A stretch of 64,000 nt of DNA from Buchnera aphidicola (Formosaphis micheliae) (lineage in GTDB: Bacteria > Pseudomonadota > Gammaproteobacteria > Enterobacterales > Enterobacteriaceae). Below the pieces are notes generated by a model, which saw nothing but the letters and a program-made list of their open reading frames with translations, ran no database searches and was not told the DNA's origin. The translations under genes were made by a program, and so were the position numbers. The stretch is from the NCBI RefSeq assembly GCF_039403185.1, contig NZ_CP135047.1, forward strand, positions 372,001-436,000, read 5' to 3'. Below are positions 2,808 to 63,809 of this stretch, in pieces (position 1 is the first letter of the stretch; every line of letters begins with the position of its first letter).

Positions 2808-3942
2808 ATGATTTACAATAACTATTTAACACACCTAAGAGATAAAATTAATAAAATTGATCACGATTTAATTGTGCTATTATCCAAAAGACAATCAGTA
2901 GTCAAAAAAATTGCAAAAATAAAAATTGATCAATCATTACCCATAAAAGATACAAAACGTGAACATTTTTTATTAACAGAATTAATAAAATTAGGTGAAA
3001 AATATAATATAAATAGTACCTATATAAAAAATATATTTACTACAATTATAGAATATTCAATAATTTCCCAAGAAAAAATTTTAAAAAAAAAAATAATTTA
3101 ACTCATGTTATATTTTCATTTCTTGGTCCACAAGGATCCTACTCGTATTTAGCAATGAAGAAATATTCTAAAAAATATTTTTTGAATATTATAGAAAAGA
3201 CGTGTATTAATTTTGAAAATGTTATAAAAAATGTAGAAAATAAAAAATCTAATTTAGCAATATTACCTATACATAATTTAATTACAGGATCTATTTTAGA
3301 AGTATATAATCTACTACAACATACTAAATTATCTATCATAGGAGAAATATATCTTCCTATCAATCATTGTATTATAGCGTTACCAGACACTGATGTAAAA
3401 AACATAAATACTATCTATAGCCACATCCAACCTTTAAAACAATGTAGTATATTTTTAAATAAATTTCCACACTGGAAATTAAAAAATACATCTAGTTCAT
3501 CTTATGCTATTGAAAACTTATCAAAAAAAAAAACAAAAATATCGCTGCTATAGGTAACGAATATAGTAGTAAATTGTATTCTTTAAATATATTATTTCAT
3601 AATATATCCAATATAAAAAACAATACTACTAGATTTATTATTTTACAAGATACTCCTGTTAATATTATAGAAGATACATCGAAAATAATAACACTAGCAT
3701 TTATTTGTATAAAAAAACCACAATTACTTAAAAATATACACTTATTATTTAAAAAATATTATTTAAATATAAAATATTTAACATCTCAAGATATTTCTTC
3801 TAATCCTATAAAATCAATTTGTTACATCGATATATCATATTATGTACTAATACCCTCTAGTATAAAAAATGCATTATCTGAATTACATACAATTGTTGAT
3901 CAAATAAAAATATTAGGTTGTTATACAAAAAACAATTATTAA
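2808..3942 (+). CDS. pheA: Chorismate mutase / prephenate dehydratase, broken by two poly(A) frameshifts
   Basis: Bifunctional P-protein making phenylpyruvate from chorismate for phenylalanine supply to the host. Three pieces in three frames cover the whole enzyme. The chorismate mutase domain (2808 to about 3093) keeps the expected active-site Arg, Lys, Asp, Glu and Gln positions (RDKINKID, KRQ, DTKRE). The prephenate dehydratase domain begins with FLGPQGSYS near 3119 and ends with the catalytic TRF near 3630. A C-terminal ACT domain follows. The first break is at A11 3083-3093 and the second at A11 3523-3533; one extra A at each rejoins the frames. The overall span equals about 378 codons (E. 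coli 386). The ACT motifs GALV and ESRP are replaced by PQLL and TSQD, so feedback inhibition is probably lost. It may be expressed by transcriptional slippage or be a recent pseudogene. Confidence 0.9.
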
Positions 3943-24931: not shown

Positions 24932-27509
24932 TTATTTTTTATCAGATAAAATGTAATCTTTTAACAAATAAATTATTTCTAAAGACTCTCTTGGAGAAAG
25001 TAAATCAGGTTCAATATTTTTTATTACACATAAAATGTTCTCTTTTAAGTTCTTTTGAAATAACATATTTCTAATTTTTTTAAAATAATTTCTATTATTA
25101 CAAATTTGTGATGAATATTCCAATTCCTTTAGTTTTACTTGAGCTTGACGAATGACATAATTTGGTAAACCTGATAATTGAGCTACAGCTAATCCATGAC
25201 TTTTTTTTGTAAATCCACTTTTTACCATATATGTAAATTGAATTAAATTATTATGTTCAATTACTTCAAAATAAATATTTTTTATTTCTTTAAATTTTTC
25301 TGCTAATAAAGTTAATTCAAAATAATGTGTAGAAAATAATGTAATAGACTTAATAACTTGTACTAAATATTCAGCACATGCCCACGCTAAAGATAAACCA
25401 TCGTAAGTAGATGTACCTCTTCCAATCTCATCAATTAATACTAAACTATTTTTATCAGCATTATTTAAAATACTAGCTAATTCAGTCATTTCTACCATGA
25501 AAGTCGATTTTCCCATTGATAAATCATCTGCAGAACCAACTCTAATAAAAATTTTATTGAAATTACCAATTTTTGCTATCTTTGCTGGAACATAACTACC
25601 TATCCAAGTCATAATAACAATCAATGCTATTTGTCTCATATAAGTACTCTTTCCTCCCATATTAGCTCCAGTAATAATAATCATTCTATTTGTTTCAGAT
25701 AATAAAACAGAATTAGAAACAAATGAATTTTGTAAAACAGACTCGATAACTGGATGACGACTATCTATTAATGAAATAAAAGGATAATCGTATAATTTTG
25801 GACAAGTATAATTCATAGCAACTGAACGTTCCGCTAAATTGGTCAATACATCTATTTCAGCTAATATCGAAGCATTAGAATATAAACTATCTAATTCAGT
25901 AGAGAATATGTCAAATATTTCTGTATATAGTTTTTTTCTAAGTTAATAATTTTCTCTTGTGCTACCAAAATATTAGATTCATAATCTTTTAATTCTTTAA
26001 AAAAATATCTTTCACAATTTTTTAATGTTTGACATTTACTATAATGAGATGGTACTAATTGACAATGTCTTTGACTAACTTGTATATAATATCCAATGAT
26101 TCGATTAGATCTAATTTTTAATGATTCTATACCTAGAATATCTTTTAATTTTATCTCTAATTTTTTCAGATATTGATATCCATCTGTTTTTATTAATCTT
26201 AATGTATCTAACTCATCATTATACCCAGAAGATATTACTCCTCCATCTTGAATTGAATCTGAAGGACATATATTGATTGCTCGTTCTAATAAATTTAATA
26301 ATTTTTTAAATTCTTTAATTGAAAAACATAATTTTCTTATATGACTAACATTTATATTTAATAATATTTTTTTTATTATCGGTAATTGTATAAAAGTTTT
26401 TTTTTAAAGAAATAAAATCTTTTGGTGACGCTGTACGTAAAGCAATACGAGAAGTAATTCGTTCCAAATCGCTAATGTTACATAATTCTGCCTGCAAAAT
26501 AATATATATTTTACGCAAACCAGAAATACTATTTTGCCGATTTTTAATAACATTAAAATTACGTTCAGGAGAATTTAACCACCTTTTTAATATTCGACTA
26601 CCCATTGATGTAGAAGTATGATCTAATACAGAACATAAGGTATTTTTCGTACCACCAGAAATATTTTTAATAATTTCTAAATTTCGATAAGTTGACCCAT
26701 TAATAGTAATATTATCTCTAATATTATTTATTTTAATCGATTTTATATGAGGTAACATATAATAATGTGTATTTTTTACATACTGTAATAAACATCCTGC
26801 AGCACAAACAGCAATATATACTTTACAAAAACCTAACTGAAATAAATTAATATTACTAAACTGTAAACTTAATTGTTTCCATGATTTAAAAAATTCAAAT
26901 TCTGATACAGAACGTTTACGCAATCCTCTTCGTGATTTTATGTCATAATAATAAATAAAATTTTCAGGATACAATAATTCTTTTGGGTTATCTTTTTCTA
27001 ACACGGATAATATGTCGTTAAAATTTTTATATTCTACTATATTGAATGAACCAGAACAAATATTCAAAGTAGCATAACCAAAAATATTATTTTGCATCCA
27101 AATAGAACTTAATAAATTATCTTGATCATCTTTTAAAAAAATATCATCAGTTACTGTACCTGGTGTAATTACTTTCACAACTTTACGTTGTAATAAATTA
27201 GTGTTTGGACATATACCACCTATTTGTTCACAAATCGCAATAGATTCACCTAATTTAATTAATTTCACTAAATAAGAATCAACAAAATTACAAGGTATTC
27301 CAGACATTGGTATTATTTTTCCACCAGAATAACCTTTTTTTTGTCAATGTAATCTTTAATAAATGAGAAATTTTTTTAGCATCCTCATAAAACAACTCAT
27401 AAAAATCACCCATTCTATAAAACAAAAGCATATCTGGATAATGAGATTTTAATGACAAGTACTGTTGAATCATAGGAGTATGACATATTGTTTTATTGAT
27501 TTTTTTCAT
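24932..27509 (-). pseudogene. mutS: DNA mismatch repair ATPase MutS, three frameshifts
   Basis: MutS recognises mismatches and small loops. Four pieces in shifting frames span about 859 codons (E. coli 853). The mismatch-binding domain starts at 27509 with the HTPMIQQYL and [11 protein letters not shown] segments. A break follows at A8 (27335-27342), then domains I-II continue to A9 (26397-26405). An open segment of about 153 codons with no start of its own (26397-25938) runs to A7 (25931-25937), and the ATPase domain with GANMGGKST and DEIGRGTST completes the gene. The first two breaks need one A fewer and the third one A more. Homology is near complete and no large deletion is seen, so inactivation is recent, or slippage yields rare full-length protein. 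With three breaks, functional output should be very low. Confidence 0.9.
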
Positions 27510-28037
27510 AAATTAGCTCAAATGGATTTATATAAAAAATTACTATATTTTTTTTTATAACATAAATAAAAATGCCATTAAATTATAAATTTATAACGAA
27601 TATTTATATATCCTGTACAACTACTACACACATAATAAGATATATATTAACAGTTAACATTCTTTTAAAAAAAATATTAACTATATATATTTTTTTATTA
27701 TCTCTATTTATATAAAGAGAAAATAAAAAATAATATTTACATCTAAAATAAAATATATATGTAACGTAACATTTTATATCTAATCATTTGCATAAATTTA
27801 ATTAAAAAATATCGACTATCATATTATAAAAAATATTTACTCAATATATTATTCATTTTATATCTTAAATTATTAACATATTTCTTATATTAATATCATC
27901 TATATGACATATAATAAAATATTAACTTCATAAAAATAAAAAAATACACTATATAATATATATTATAAACAATATCATGTGTTAAATAATATTCATTTCT
28001 TTATAATAATTAACAAAAAATATAATACCTGTAAAAA
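27510..28037. other. 528-bp divergent spacer mutS / polA
   Basis: AT-rich, with no ORF, RNA gene or strong hairpin. It must contain the polA start signals, none of which can be supported. Confidence 0.4.
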
Positions 28038-28952
28038 ATGAACAATATACAAATAGATAATAATAAAAAAATCTTAATAATAGATGCTACTACATATATG
28101 TACCGTGCATTCTATGCATTACCATCATTAACTAATAACCAAGGGAATCCATCTGGAGTAATATATGGTGTCATAAATATGTTATATAAATTATTGCATA
28201 AATATAACACATATCACATTATTTGTGTATTTGATGCTCCATATAAAAATTTTAGACATCATTTATTTAAAAATTACAAAAAAAACAGAAAATCTATTCC
28301 AGAAAACTTAAAAAAACAAATTCCACATTTACAACAAATAATTACATTTATAGGTATACCAATATTCATGATTCCTTTTGTAGAAGCAGACGATGTAATT
28401 GGAACACTATCTCATAAAATAGCAAAACAAGGATACTCTGTATTAATTAGTACGAATGATAAAGATATGTTACAATTAATTACAAAAAAAATAAAAATTA
28501 TACATACAAATAACAATAATATTATTGGAATATCAGAAGTTAAAAAAAAATATGGTATATCTCCTATACATATAATAGATTTATTATCATTAATGGGAGA
28601 TTCTGCCGATAATATTCCAGGCGTACCAAAAATAGGTGAAAAAACTGCTTTAATATTATTAAAACATTTTCAATCTTTAGAAAATATATATAATAATATA
28701 GAAAATATAAAACATATCCCAATTCACGGAGCTAACAAAATATTTAATATCATTAAAACCAATAAAAATATTGCTTTTTTATCAAAAAAATTAGCAACAA
28801 TAAAAAAAGATGTCCTATTAAATGTCAATATAAAAAAGAATATTAATTTACCATTCCAAAAAAAAGAACTAATAAGATTATTTCATTATTATAATTTTGA
28901 TATATGGAAAAAAAAGATAGAAAACAATGCATGGTTACCAACAAAAACATAG
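28038..28952 (+). CDS. polA: DNA polymerase I, 5'-3' exonuclease part
   Basis: Flap-type 5'-3' nuclease domain of Pol I, which removes RNA primers. It has 304 residues, with IDATTYMYRAF near 14, FDAPYKNFRH near 72, the acidic EADDVIG near 115, STNDKDMLQL near 138 and GDSADNIPGVPKIGEKTA near 186-203. The alignment to E. coli continues to the last residues (the NNAWLPTK segment), and the frame then stops. The polymerase part begins in another frame 49 bases before this stop. The domain could act alone, as the free nuclease does in some bacteria. Confidence 0.93.
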   Translation: MNNIQIDNNKKILIIDATTYMYRAFYALPSLTNNQGNPSGVIYGVINMLYKLLHKYNTYHIICVFDAPYKNFRHHLFKNYKKNRKSIPENLKKQIPHLQQIITFIGIPIFMIPFVEADDVIGTLSHKIAKQGYSVLISTNDKDMLQLITKKIKIIHTNNNNIIGISEVKKKYGISPIHIIDLLSLMGDSADNIPGVPKIGEKTALILLKHFQSLENIYNNIENIKHIPIHGANKIFNIIKTNKNIAFLSKKLATIKKDVLLNVNIKKNINLPFQKKELIRLFHYYNFDIWKKKIENNAWLPTKT

Positions 28953-30712
28953 AATATAATATACATGACAAAAATAATCAAACATGTATTACTATTAATA
29001 ATAAAGAACAATTTGCACATTTTTTAGAAGAAATAAAATATTATAAAAAAATATCATTTATAATCATAACTGAAATATGTAAACATGAAAATAAACAAAT
29101 TATAGGTTTTTTATTTTCAGTTACTATTGATCAGTCATTCTATTTACCTGTTTCTATTTATGAATGTTGTAATAATAAAAATAAAATTAATATATCTTAC
29201 TATTATTATATGTTACAACAACTAAAATTAATTTTTGAAAACAAACATATATTAAAGATAGGATTTAATATAAAAAAAAATATTCATATATTAAAAAAAT
29301 ACCATATAAAATTATATAGTAATTTTTTTGATACTATGATTGCATCACATGCACTAAATAATTGTATAAAAAAAAATAAAGATATCTACAATCTGATAAA
29401 TTTATGGATAACACAAAAACAAAATAAAATATATGATTCACTTATAAAATTTAATACATCTGCAATTAATTTAAAATTATATTTAAAGATATCAAATTTT
29501 TTATATGAAGAAAAAATCACAAAAAAAACAATATATAATATAGAATTACCATTAATAATAATAATAGAAAATATAGAAAAAAATGGTGTATTAATTGATA
29601 AAAATATATTAAGAGAACAAGAAAAAAAAATAAATATTGAATTATTAGAATTAGAACAATATATTTATAAATTAATAGAAAAAAAAATTAATTTACTGTC
29701 AAGCAAACAAATTAAAGAAATTTTAATCACTATACCAAATACAATATATGAAAATAAAAAAGATTTATTAATGCAATCTGTAAAAAAATATAGAAGTTTA
29801 TATAAATTACAATCAACATATGTAACACTTTTGCCAAAAAAAATTAATATGATTACTAACAGAATACATACATGTTACAATCAAATTAATACTTTGACTG
29901 GAAGATTATCATCTAGTAATCCAAATTTACAAAACATTCCATCATCTACAACTTTTTATGGAAAAAAAATTAGAAATGCTTTCATAGCACCAAAAAATTT
30001 TCTTATTGTTTCCTTTGACTATTCTCAAATTGAGTTAAGAATTATTACTCATTTATCCAAAGATAAATATTTCATTAAATTATTTAATGAAAAAACGGAT
30101 ATTCATCTAATGACCGCTGCTTCAATATTTAATATACCTGTAAAAAATGTCATAAACAAGCAAAGACAATTTGCAAAAATGATTAATTTTAGTGTAATTT
30201 ATGGAATCAACCCATTTAATTTATCAAAACAATTAAATATCAGTATACTGAAAGCAAAAAAATATATTACCACCTATTATACTAAACATCCAGAAATATT
30301 ACAGTATATAAAAAATACTAGTAAATTAGCACTGATTAATGGATATGTATTAACATTACATAAACGAAAAATATATATTCCGAATATATTCTCAAAAAAT
30401 ATCAATATTCGTCAAGCTGCTCAAAGAACAGCTATTAATGCCACTATACAAGGTACTACTTCAGATATAATGAAGTTGTCTATGATAAAAATACATCATT
30501 TATTAAAAACTAAATATACTTTGACAGCAAAAATGATTATGCAAATACATGATGAATTAATTTTCGAAATACAACAAATGCAAGCACATAATATTTGTCA
30601 AGAAATAAAAAAAATTATGGAAAATAGCTGTAAATTAGATATCCCTGTATGTGTAAATGTAAAATTAGGAAAAAACTGGGGCGACATATTATCTAGTGTC
30701 ATAAAAAATTGA
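28904..30712 (+). CDS. polA: DNA polymerase I, Klenow-like part in a separate frame
   Basis: The polymerase domain is complete: motif A DYSQIELRI with Asp372, motif B RQFAKMINFSVIYG, motif C HDEL with Asp550 (own numbering). The 3'-5' exonuclease domain is present but dead: the DTE motif reads ITE (55-57), the next Asp is Asn126, and the last acidic cluster is NTSAIN. It overlaps the exonuclease frame by 49 bases. The ATG at 28904 has no ribosome site and is followed by A8 (28908-28915); one extra A there fuses the two parts. The best alignment places the original lesion near the A5 just before the upstream stop. So Pol I is either two proteins or one made by slippage. Confidence 0.9.
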   Translation: MEKKDRKQCMVTNKNIEYNIHDKNNQTCITINNKEQFAHFLEEIKYYKKISFIIITEICKHENKQIIGFLFSVTIDQSFYLPVSIYECCNNKNKINISYYYYMLQQLKLIFENKHILKIGFNIKKNIHILKKYHIKLYSNFFDTMIASHALNNCIKKNKDIYNLINLWITQKQNKIYDSLIKFNTSAINLKLYLKISNFLYEEKITKKTIYNIELPLIIIIENIEKNGVLIDKNILREQEKKINIELLELEQYIYKLIEKKINLLSSKQIKEILITIPNTIYENKKDLLMQSVKKYRSLYKLQSTYVTLLPKKINMITNRIHTCYNQINTLTGRLSSSNPNLQNIPSSTTFYGKKIRNAFIAPKNFLIVSFDYSQIELRIITHLSKDKYFIKLFNEKTDIHLMTAASIFNIPVKNVINKQRQFAKMINFSVIYGINPFNLSKQLNISILKAKKYITTYYTKHPEILQYIKNTSKLALINGYVLTLHKRKIYIPNIFSKNINIRQAAQRTAINATIQGTTSDIMKLSMIKIHHLLKTKYTLTAKMIMQIHDELIFEIQQMQAHNICQEIKKIMENSCKLDIPVCVNVKLGKNWGDILSSVIKN

Positions 30713-39618: not shown

Positions 39619-40457
39619 ATGAATCATATTTATATTAATTTTCCAAAAATAAATCCTATAATGATATCTATAGGTTCTTTTTCCTTATACTGGTATGGAA
39701 TACTTTACCTTATCAGTTTTATATTTATACTTTATTTTAGTAAAAAAAAAATAAAAAAACTGAAAAAAAAATAGAAAATATACTATACTGTTCTTTTTTT
39801 GCTATGTTATTAGGTGGTAAAATAGGATATATAATATTCTATCATCCATATTATTATTTACATCATATTTTCAATATATTTAAAATATGGAACATTGGAA
39901 TGTCTTTCCATGGTGGACTCATTGGAGTAATAATTACTATATTTATTTTTGCAAAAAAGAATAAAAACAATTTCTTTAAAATTACTGATTCTATTGTTCC
40001 ATTTGTACCCTTCGGACTAGGAGCTGGTAGAATTGGAAATTTTATTAATGGTGAATTATGGGGTAAAGTATCACTAAACGCACCCGTCTCTGTTTTTTTT
40101 CCAAAATCATATGAAGAAGACTTAAATATTTCTATAATACATCCAGAATTTAAACCTATAATGAATCAGTTTGGAACATTACCGAGACACCCTTCTCAAT
40201 TATATGAATGTTTTTTAGAAGGAATCGTTCTTTTTGTTATATTACATATATTATCAAAACGTACTTATAAAAATGGTACCTTATCATCAATATTTCTAAT
40301 TTTTTATGGAATATTTCGTATTATCGGTGAACTTTATCGTCAACCAGATCCTCAAATTGGTTTATATTTAGATATATTTAGTATAGGTCAAATATTATCA
40401 TTTCCAATGATTATAATAGGAATAATAATAATAATTAAAAATTATGTTAAAAAATAA
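39619..40457 (+). CDS. lgt: Prolipoprotein diacylglyceryl transferase, N-terminus in another frame
   Basis: Inner-membrane enzyme that transfers diacylglycerol to the lipobox Cys of prolipoproteins. The uninterrupted frame from 39804 lacks the first 60 residues. ATG 39619 opens the missing part (the MNHIYINFP segment, then a membrane segment with LYWYGILYLISFIF). It runs into three A-runs: A10 39742-39751, A7 39753-39759 and A9 39763-39771. One additional A at any of them joins TEKKIENILY and the rest, matching E. coli throughout. The signature GLGAGRIGNFINGELWG and MSFHGGLIG are intact, as are the predicted membrane helices. Unslipped, translation stops at TAG 39772. Expression likely needs slippage; no ribosome site is obvious. 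Confidence 0.9.
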
Positions 40458-61968: not shown

Positions 61969-63809
61969 ATGTATATCATTACTTTACTAAAACAAGCCAT
62001 AAAAAAAAAAATTATCCATCCCATTGATTTTTATTTTGCTATTAATATCGTAACTACAAAAGAACCAGAAATAATTTTAGCAGCAGTGTGCATAAGTTAT
62101 ACTACCAGGTTTGGTAATATTTGTTTACCTATATCACATATAGAAAAAAAAAAGTTTTTCCTAAAAACAATATATTATTTATCGATAAATTATGGAATAC
62201 AGTTGGAAATCCTAGTGATTGGGAAAAAACATTACTAAATAGTGCAATAGTCAGTAACAATTCATATTCATCCCCTCTAATTATATCAGAACATAATTTA
62301 TATCTGAATTATCTATGGAAAGCTCAAAAAACAGTAAGCTCTTTTATTATATGTAATAAAAAAGAATATATTGACTTAAAATTATCAAAAAAAATATTAC
62401 AGTCATTATTACATAAGAAAGATGATATAGATCAAAAAATAGCCATCGCTTTATCAATGATTTGGAAAATTATTTTTATTATAGGAGGTCCAGGAACAGG
62501 AAAAACAACTACAGTAGCTAAAATATTACTAGCATGTATTCGTATATTAAATCAAAAAGTTAACATACAATTAGCAGCACCAACAGGAAAAGCAGCTAAT
62601 AAATTAACAACATCGTTACAAAAAAGTATAAAGAATATACCATTAAATGAATTAGAAAAAAATATTATTAAAAAATTACATGCTGTTACACTACATCGAC
62701 TATTAGGTATAAAAAAAAATAGTAACAAACCATTTTTTAATGAGAATAATTTATTAAATATAAATATATTAATAATAGATGAAGCATCAATGATTAGTTT
62801 AACATTAATGGAACAACTAATTAAATCTTGTCCAAAACAAATTAAAATTATTTTTTTAGGTGATATTAATCAACTACCTTCAATTGAACCAGGATGCGTA
62901 CTAAAAGATACATATTATTATTATAAACATGCATATAGTCATGATATAGCAAATTTACTACATAAAATTACTGGAGAAAAAATACAAAAAACAAAAAAAA
63001 ATAATTTTTCCACTATCAGTGATAGTATTTGTATATTAAATAAAAATTATCGATTTGATGTCAATTCAGATCTTCAACAATTGTCTATCGATTTAATTTT
63101 AGATAAAAAACAAGTCATAGAAAAAATATTAAATAACCAATATAAAAATATTTTCTATTATGACATAAGTCATAAAAAAAATTATTATTCTATGATAAAA
63201 CAAATTATAATAGAATATTCTAAATATTTAACAAACATAAAAAACAATCATTGTTTATATAATATAATAAAAAAATTTAATAAATATCGTGTTTTATGTG
63301 CAATTAGAAATGGAATATACGGTGTAAAAGAATTAAATTTACGTTTAGAAATTCAAATGAAAAATTTAAATCTTATTAAAAATATATACTATATTAACAA
63401 TGATATGTGGTATGAAGGAAAACCAATAATTATTACCGAAAATAACAACTCTCTTGAATTACTTAACGGAGATATTGGAATTACTCTTTTTGATTATAAA
63501 AAGAGATTAAAAATATTTTTTATAAGAAATGAAAACTTAACAAAATCAATTCCTATTAATTTAATTACTACATATGAAACTGCATGGATTATGACAATTC
63601 ACAAGTCTCAAGGTTCTGAATTTTCACATACAGTATTAATTCTACCAAATAAAAAATATGAAATATTAACTCATGAACTATTATATACAGGAATAACTAG
63701 AGCTCGTAAAAAACTAACAATATATGCTAACTACTCATGTTTAAAAGAAACAATTCAAAGAAATTGTACAAGATACAGTAATCTATACAAAAATAATATA
63801 TCTAATTAA
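61969..63809 (+). CDS. recD: Exonuclease V subunit RecD, poly(A) frameshift near the N-terminus
   Basis: 5'-3' helicase of RecBCD. The N-terminal piece from ATG 61969 (ALLKQAIKKK-like start, HPIDFYFAINIV) runs to A10 at 62144-62153; one extra A joins it to the long frame that carries the helicase: GGPGTGKTTTVAK, APTGKAA, IIDEASM, GDINQLPSIE, TIHKSQGSEF and TGITRARKKL. The full span is about 613 codons (E. coli 608). The long frame's first codon (TTG 62121) has no ribosome site and no homology before the tract, so it is not a real start. recD begins 20 bases after recB in one operon. Without slippage RecD would be lost. Confidence 0.92.

Follow-up and report, generated by a model that had tools for sequence, protein, structure and literature searches.

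Two A11 runs break the frame of pheA in Buchnera of Formosaphis micheliae, and slippage may keep the gene in use

Frame-broken genes of Buchnera and Blochmannia are corrected by poly(A) transcriptional slippage, as reported by Tamas et al. (2008) and summarized in later papers (PMC5009743, PMC3017870). In the cases so summarized, correction occurs by a base added in the mRNA, and some of the breaks are common to species. Eight otherwise intact genes of Blochmannia vafer, including dnaX and dnaG, carry breaks in homopolymer runs with no increase in evolutionary rate, and some of these breaks are common to another species (PMC3017870). In further genes of these two symbionts, corrected transcripts are reported at 12–50% (PMC5009743). 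Buchnera transcripts were found to contain 151 insertions versus 16 deletions in runs, and a transcriptome survey of another Buchnera revealed no restored frame (PMC5574713). In Thermus thermophilus, transcriptional slippage on a nine-base A/T run in dnaX generates a mixture of products (PMC5009743).

The window analyzed here is a 64,000-nucleotide stretch of the chromosome of Buchnera aphidicola (Formosaphis micheliae). Between rplM/rpsI and ffh it contains pheA (window 2808–3942), whose coding sequence changes frame at two A-runs and so occupies three frames (Table 1). The gene resembles the cases of Tamas et al., as these are summarized, in that an AT-rich, reduced symbiont has lost one base in an A/T run from a gene that is otherwise intact. 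An earlier note on this DNA had described two A11 tracts in pheA; both indeed read exactly A11 in the assembly, not A12, and each constitutes a single-base frame break in a long run. The prephenate dehydratase (PDT) requires +1 relative to the chorismate mutase (CM), and the section that follows tract 2 requires +1 again. The assignment of CM, PDT, and ACT to one frame each was correct as to the number of frames; tract 2, however, lies inside PDT, and the third frame encodes the end of PDT together with ACT. As the earlier note proposed, one A added at each tract yields a continuous protein, here of 378 amino acids, but an A9 tract would restore each frame equally well.

In this conceptual protein, Pfam identifies CM_2 (residues 10–88) and a single PDT domain (residues 104–282; 188 bits) that extends across tract 2. 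The deposited A11/A11 sequence gives two separate PDT matches, of 138 and 39 bits. The ACT region was assigned through alignment; Pfam gave no ACT match, and the ESRP motif is gone. This arrangement, with CM_2, PDT and its motifs, and ACT at the C-terminal end, is that of a bifunctional PheA (P-protein). Besides the two tracts, the 378 codons contain no further lesion or stop. Residues R11, R28, K39, D48, R51, E52, and Q88, which we take to be the active-site positions in E. coli chorismate mutase numbering, are all present upstream of tract 1, making it plausible that a complete chorismate mutase is produced without slippage. Scanning of the PDT frame upstream of GPQGSYS for ATG, GTG, and TTG revealed none, which rules out a separate, whole dehydratase made by translation restart. 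Production of the bifunctional enzyme consequently needs +1 at both tracts, as had been claimed. The genome encodes no dehydratase other than pheA.

Table 1. Positions of the pheA parts and of frame lesions at A/T runs. Coordinates refer to the window unless the chromosome is named.
Feature	Position	Strand	Remarks
pheA part 1, chorismate mutase frame	2808..3101	+	97-aa ORF; CM_2 66.7 bits in conceptual protein; TAA stop at 3099-3101, just past tract 1
Tract 1, exact A11, TTTT[A11]TAATTT	3083..3093	+	A12 (+1) or A9 restores frame
pheA part 2, most of prephenate dehydratase including GPQGSYS	3094..3553	+	stop 3551-3553
Tract 2, exact A11, TTATC[A11]CAAAAA, within PDT domain	3523..3533	+	A12 (+1) or A9 restores frame
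pheA part 3, last ~40 PDT residues with TRF (275), then ACT	3534..3942	+	alignment/Pfam
mutS remnant, three frame lesions at T7-T9 runs, both directions	24932..27512	-	
lgt A10 break, +1 needed	39742..39751 (gene about 39619-40457)	+	
recD A10 break, +1 needed	62144..62153 (gene 61969-63809)	+	intact in G002, G003
sucA A13 break, +1 needed	chromosome 292277		
rsmC A11 break, +1 needed	chromosome 322867		
aroE T10 break, +1 needed	chromosome 467730-467739 (outside window)	-	same T10 in 4/4 genomes of genus

Pattern searches of the 554,353-bp chromosome for A/T runs of at least 10 bases (n = 90), combined with a geometric test for frame breaks, identified eight breaks: two in pheA and one each in rsmC (A11), sucA (A13), lgt (A10), recD (A10), aroE (T10), and a gene at 74445 (T10). 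All eight require +1. Homology confirmed seven breaks in six genes. A Pfam domain spans the junction in +1-joined pheA, aroE, lgt, rsmC, and recD, and sucA forms a single frame in two sister genomes. The gene at chromosome 74445 adjoins fliJ (and is fliK by position only); a Pfam search with it gave no match, and it was left out of the confirmed count. We also removed polA (window 28038–30712), which had initially been taken as a +1 break at A8G, because its first ORF passes the run to an end common to the sisters. The polA gene is split with a restart: one ORF encodes the 5'-nuclease, and a second, which overlaps it, encodes the exonuclease/polymerase and starts at a shared overlapping ATG; the split is common to two sister genomes. 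Three of the 16 exact A11 tracts in the genome break a frame, two in pheA and one in rsmC. Sister genome G002 has its rsmC break at this site too, and in G003 the gene is intact, with A9. The grpE gene likewise contains two A11 tracts, both in frame. What is unusual about pheA is its two frame breaks, not the presence of two tracts in one gene, and pheA is not special among the run-broken genes of this genome.

These results lend no support to the proposal in the earlier note that slippage rate is coupled to phenylalanine output as a means of control. Breaks are also present in the unrelated genes lgt, recD, rsmC, and sucA, lgt is broken twice in sister genomes, and a mutator background explains the number of breaks without a regulatory role. 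The mutS gene is a pseudogene in this genome, in which a search for mutL found none; all three sisters carry mutL, and the two checked for mutS have an intact copy. Loss of mismatch repair increases run-length mutation. The abundance of tract lesions is probably explained by loss of mutS and mutL, which would have raised the rate at which single bases are lost. Aligned from end to end with the pTrp plasmid of strain 27, a small contig of 8,788 bp shows about 99.3% identity. The plasmids of strains 27 and 28 differ by ~0.4% substitutions, and single-base differences in run length are common between them.

When shared breaks are counted once, about 11 independent breaks occur in otherwise intact genes, and all require +1, which matches the excess of insertions over deletions measured in runs of Buchnera transcripts (PMC5574713). 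The chance of this outcome is 1 in 2,048 for 11 events if both directions are equally frequent, with mutS as the sole contrast and too small a control. A deletion-biased mutation spectrum could contribute to the uniform direction.

Some breaks are conserved. The T10 break in aroE, a step of the same pathway upstream of pheA, persists across species of the genus, whereas aroE is single-frame in Baizongia, Melaphis, and four other genomes. In the comparison of G001 with G002, aroE dN/dS was 0.086 before the run and 0.168 after it, values that point to purifying selection on both halves. No shared in-frame start was found close downstream of T10 in the four genomes of the genus. The second persistent case is lgt, whose frame is interrupted at A/T runs in every one of the four genomes; G001 and G003 have two such breaks, and each break requires +1. 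Conceptual Lgt exhibits a dN/dS of 0.25 (G002–G003), and lgt is essential in E. coli. The conserved aroE and lgt breaks make it very likely that +1-type breaks are rescued in this clade. The aroE break is a stronger case for rescue than pheA.

The earlier note had proposed that the two pheA tracts be compared in related strains. In the three sister genomes of the genus (G001–G003), pheA is unbroken and carries an in-frame A10 (...EKKNNF) at tract 1; across the tract 2 region, alignment shows the same number of residues in the sisters and Formosaphis. The corrected Formosaphis sequence reads KKKNNL at tract 1, from which we infer that a G-to-A change, with the TTA ahead of it, probably made the run longer and that the loss of one A came afterward. 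Within the genus the breaks are confined to Formosaphis and do not persist across species, so they may be young. Breaks in pheA nonetheless recur, since in another genus with the same gene order (g127) two genomes, G129 and G230, have pheA broken at A-runs that each require +1. The positions differ, lying at the CM/PDT junction in one genome and inside PDT in the other. A separate observation concerns a ~5-kb plasmid-like contig (C2; in G277, G204, and G091). Its pheA encodes the dehydratase and lacks chorismate mutase, and the contig also bears a replication gene of TrfA type and an ORF resembling an invasin. These ~5-kb pheA contigs, from g89 genomes, at first suggested that a Buchnera carries the gene on a plasmid; they were set aside because their closest plasmids belong to Donacia-type reed-beetle symbionts.

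Selection on pheA was compared between Formosaphis and its sisters. The dN/dS values were 0.28–0.40 for CM, 0.30–0.37 for PDT before tract 2, and 0.27–0.45 for PDT after tract 2. The Formosaphis protein branch for pheA is 1.2 times that of its sister, and neighboring genes behave alike. For ACT (window 3660–3942), dN/dS reached 0.78–0.98 in Formosaphis comparisons only, as opposed to 0.24–0.33 among the sisters. These ratios indicate that the catalytic part of PheA was kept along most of the branch and that the feedback domain drifted. They provide no date for the two breaks. The lesions in pheA number two, both at runs, and constraint appears relaxed in ACT only.

Seen against its relatives, the genome suggests that imprecise copying at runs lets pheA and a number of other "broken" genes go on functioning. 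Slippage rescue of pheA is probable on the analogy of aroE and lgt. We favor, with somewhat better than even confidence, a model in which pheA is still expressed at a low level through +1 slippage of RNA polymerase, or an equivalent −1 slip of the ribosome, at both tracts. Two long A-runs would each have lost one A, and the gene would stay in use because the same runs allow the register to be recovered. RNA polymerase would slip backward on the A11 template and insert an extra A in a fraction of mRNAs; the outcome would be equal if the ribosome slipped by −1 on AAA AAA AAA. Messages corrected at both tracts would encode the bifunctional CM-PDT enzyme, uncorrected messages would encode chorismate mutase only, and those corrected at tract 1 only would encode a dehydratase that lacks TRF and is presumably inactive. 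Published rates give a computed estimate of perhaps about 1–25% doubly corrected pheA mRNA. We infer the slippage at the two tracts, its extent, and the supply of the product to the host. The same sign of the breaks, intact coding on both sides, conserved catalytic residues, and the lack of a restart codon argue for rescue; the requirement for two slips in each mRNA, the survey of another Buchnera in which no frame was restored (PMC5574713), the absence of the breaks from the sisters, and the unconstrained ACT argue against it. The pheA breaks look like tolerated damage rather than designed control.

Several other readings must be weighed, of which the earlier note overlooked three: a −1 ribosomal slip would be equivalent, and recent pseudogenization or a mixture of A11 and A12 copies would look alike in one consensus. 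It is unlikely that pheA is a young pseudogene, in which two slippage deletions arose in a mismatch-repair-deficient lineage and other decay has yet to show, with the host obtaining phenylalanine from its diet or another symbiont. Such a history would accord with breaks limited to Formosaphis within the genus, a dead mutS, the failure to find mutL, and an ACT free of constraint. An unselected pheA is expected to lack extra stops until about 0.035 substitutions per site have built up, so inactivation within that span is compatible with the sequence, and the loss would be real given that the genome has no other dehydratase. The case is weakened by two same-sign breaks unaccompanied by any other lesion, by constraint on CM and both PDT parts with no rate increase, and by evidence across the clade for tolerance and rescue of breaks like these. 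A mixed symbiont population, in which many copies read A12 at one or both tracts beneath an A11/A11 consensus, is very unlikely, even though the sample was pooled from 5–20 aphids (PMC11193766) and the strain 27 and 28 plasmids often differ in run length. At each of the two tracts the consensus would have to misrepresent the functional majority, and mixing cannot explain aroE, with its T10 in four genomes.

That the correction comes from the ribosome and not from RNA polymerase strikes us as distinctly unlikely. Both tracts are read in frame as AAA AAA AAA, a −1 slip would give the same protein as one added A, and a stem lies downstream near tract 2 (z −1.9). However, in E. coli the sequence A AAA AAA promotes slipping less well than A AAA AAG does (PMC5009743), and T-runs are broken as well. 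Neither tract has the features of a dnaX-type programmed −1 site: a Shine-Dalgarno-like stimulator was sought at both and found at neither, and the downstream structures are weak, with nothing notable at tract 1 (z −1.0). Undercalling of runs during sequencing or assembly, which would leave pheA intact, is extremely improbable. The sign of all breaks is that expected for undercalled runs, but the assembly was built with Illumina 2x150 reads and polished with Pilon (PMC11193766), its runs of 12–14 are mostly in frame, and several broken runs are only 10 long. Recurrence of the aroE T10 break in four separate assemblies removes sequencing error as a general cause.

The reading of reduced symbiont metabolism hinges on whether frame-broken genes still work. 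Buchnera supplies nutrients to the aphid, and pheA is the committing step toward phenylalanine. Frame-broken genes tend to be annotated as dead; here that would take phenylalanine (with pheA) and the whole of aromatic synthesis (with aroE) away from a symbiont that has to supply them. Four genomes have retained the T10 break of aroE while its two halves stay under selection, which makes the break a clean natural experiment on slippage rescue; the two tracts of pheA allow one to test on single molecules whether slipping twice in an mRNA is enough. A long shot is that slippage sets aromatic supply in the clade, acting on aroE through the conserved U10 of Phe codons and on Formosaphis pheA through its two A11 runs. 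If this were true and the aroE slip were ribosomal and dependent on charged tRNA-Phe, low phenylalanine would lead to more AroE, creating a feedback loop without a regulator.

The known systems differ from pheA in several respects. In Thermus thermophilus dnaX, slippage is programmed and makes two subunits, whereas the zero-frame product of pheA at tract 1 is chorismate mutase only. The −1 ribosomal frameshifting of E. coli dnaX shares with pheA the direction of change and lysine codons; pheA differs in lacking AAG, a clear Shine-Dalgarno stimulator, and a strong hairpin at tract 1. The Blochmannia vafer genes, unlike pheA, have single breaks as described, and no amino-acid dial was proposed for them (PMC3017870). 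Compared with the genes of Tamas et al., as later papers summarize them, the present set differs in the two breaks of pheA and the genus-wide break of aroE in the same pathway. Homopolymer rescue in Buchnera and Blochmannia is already known, and the genes described here are a new and clear set of cases.
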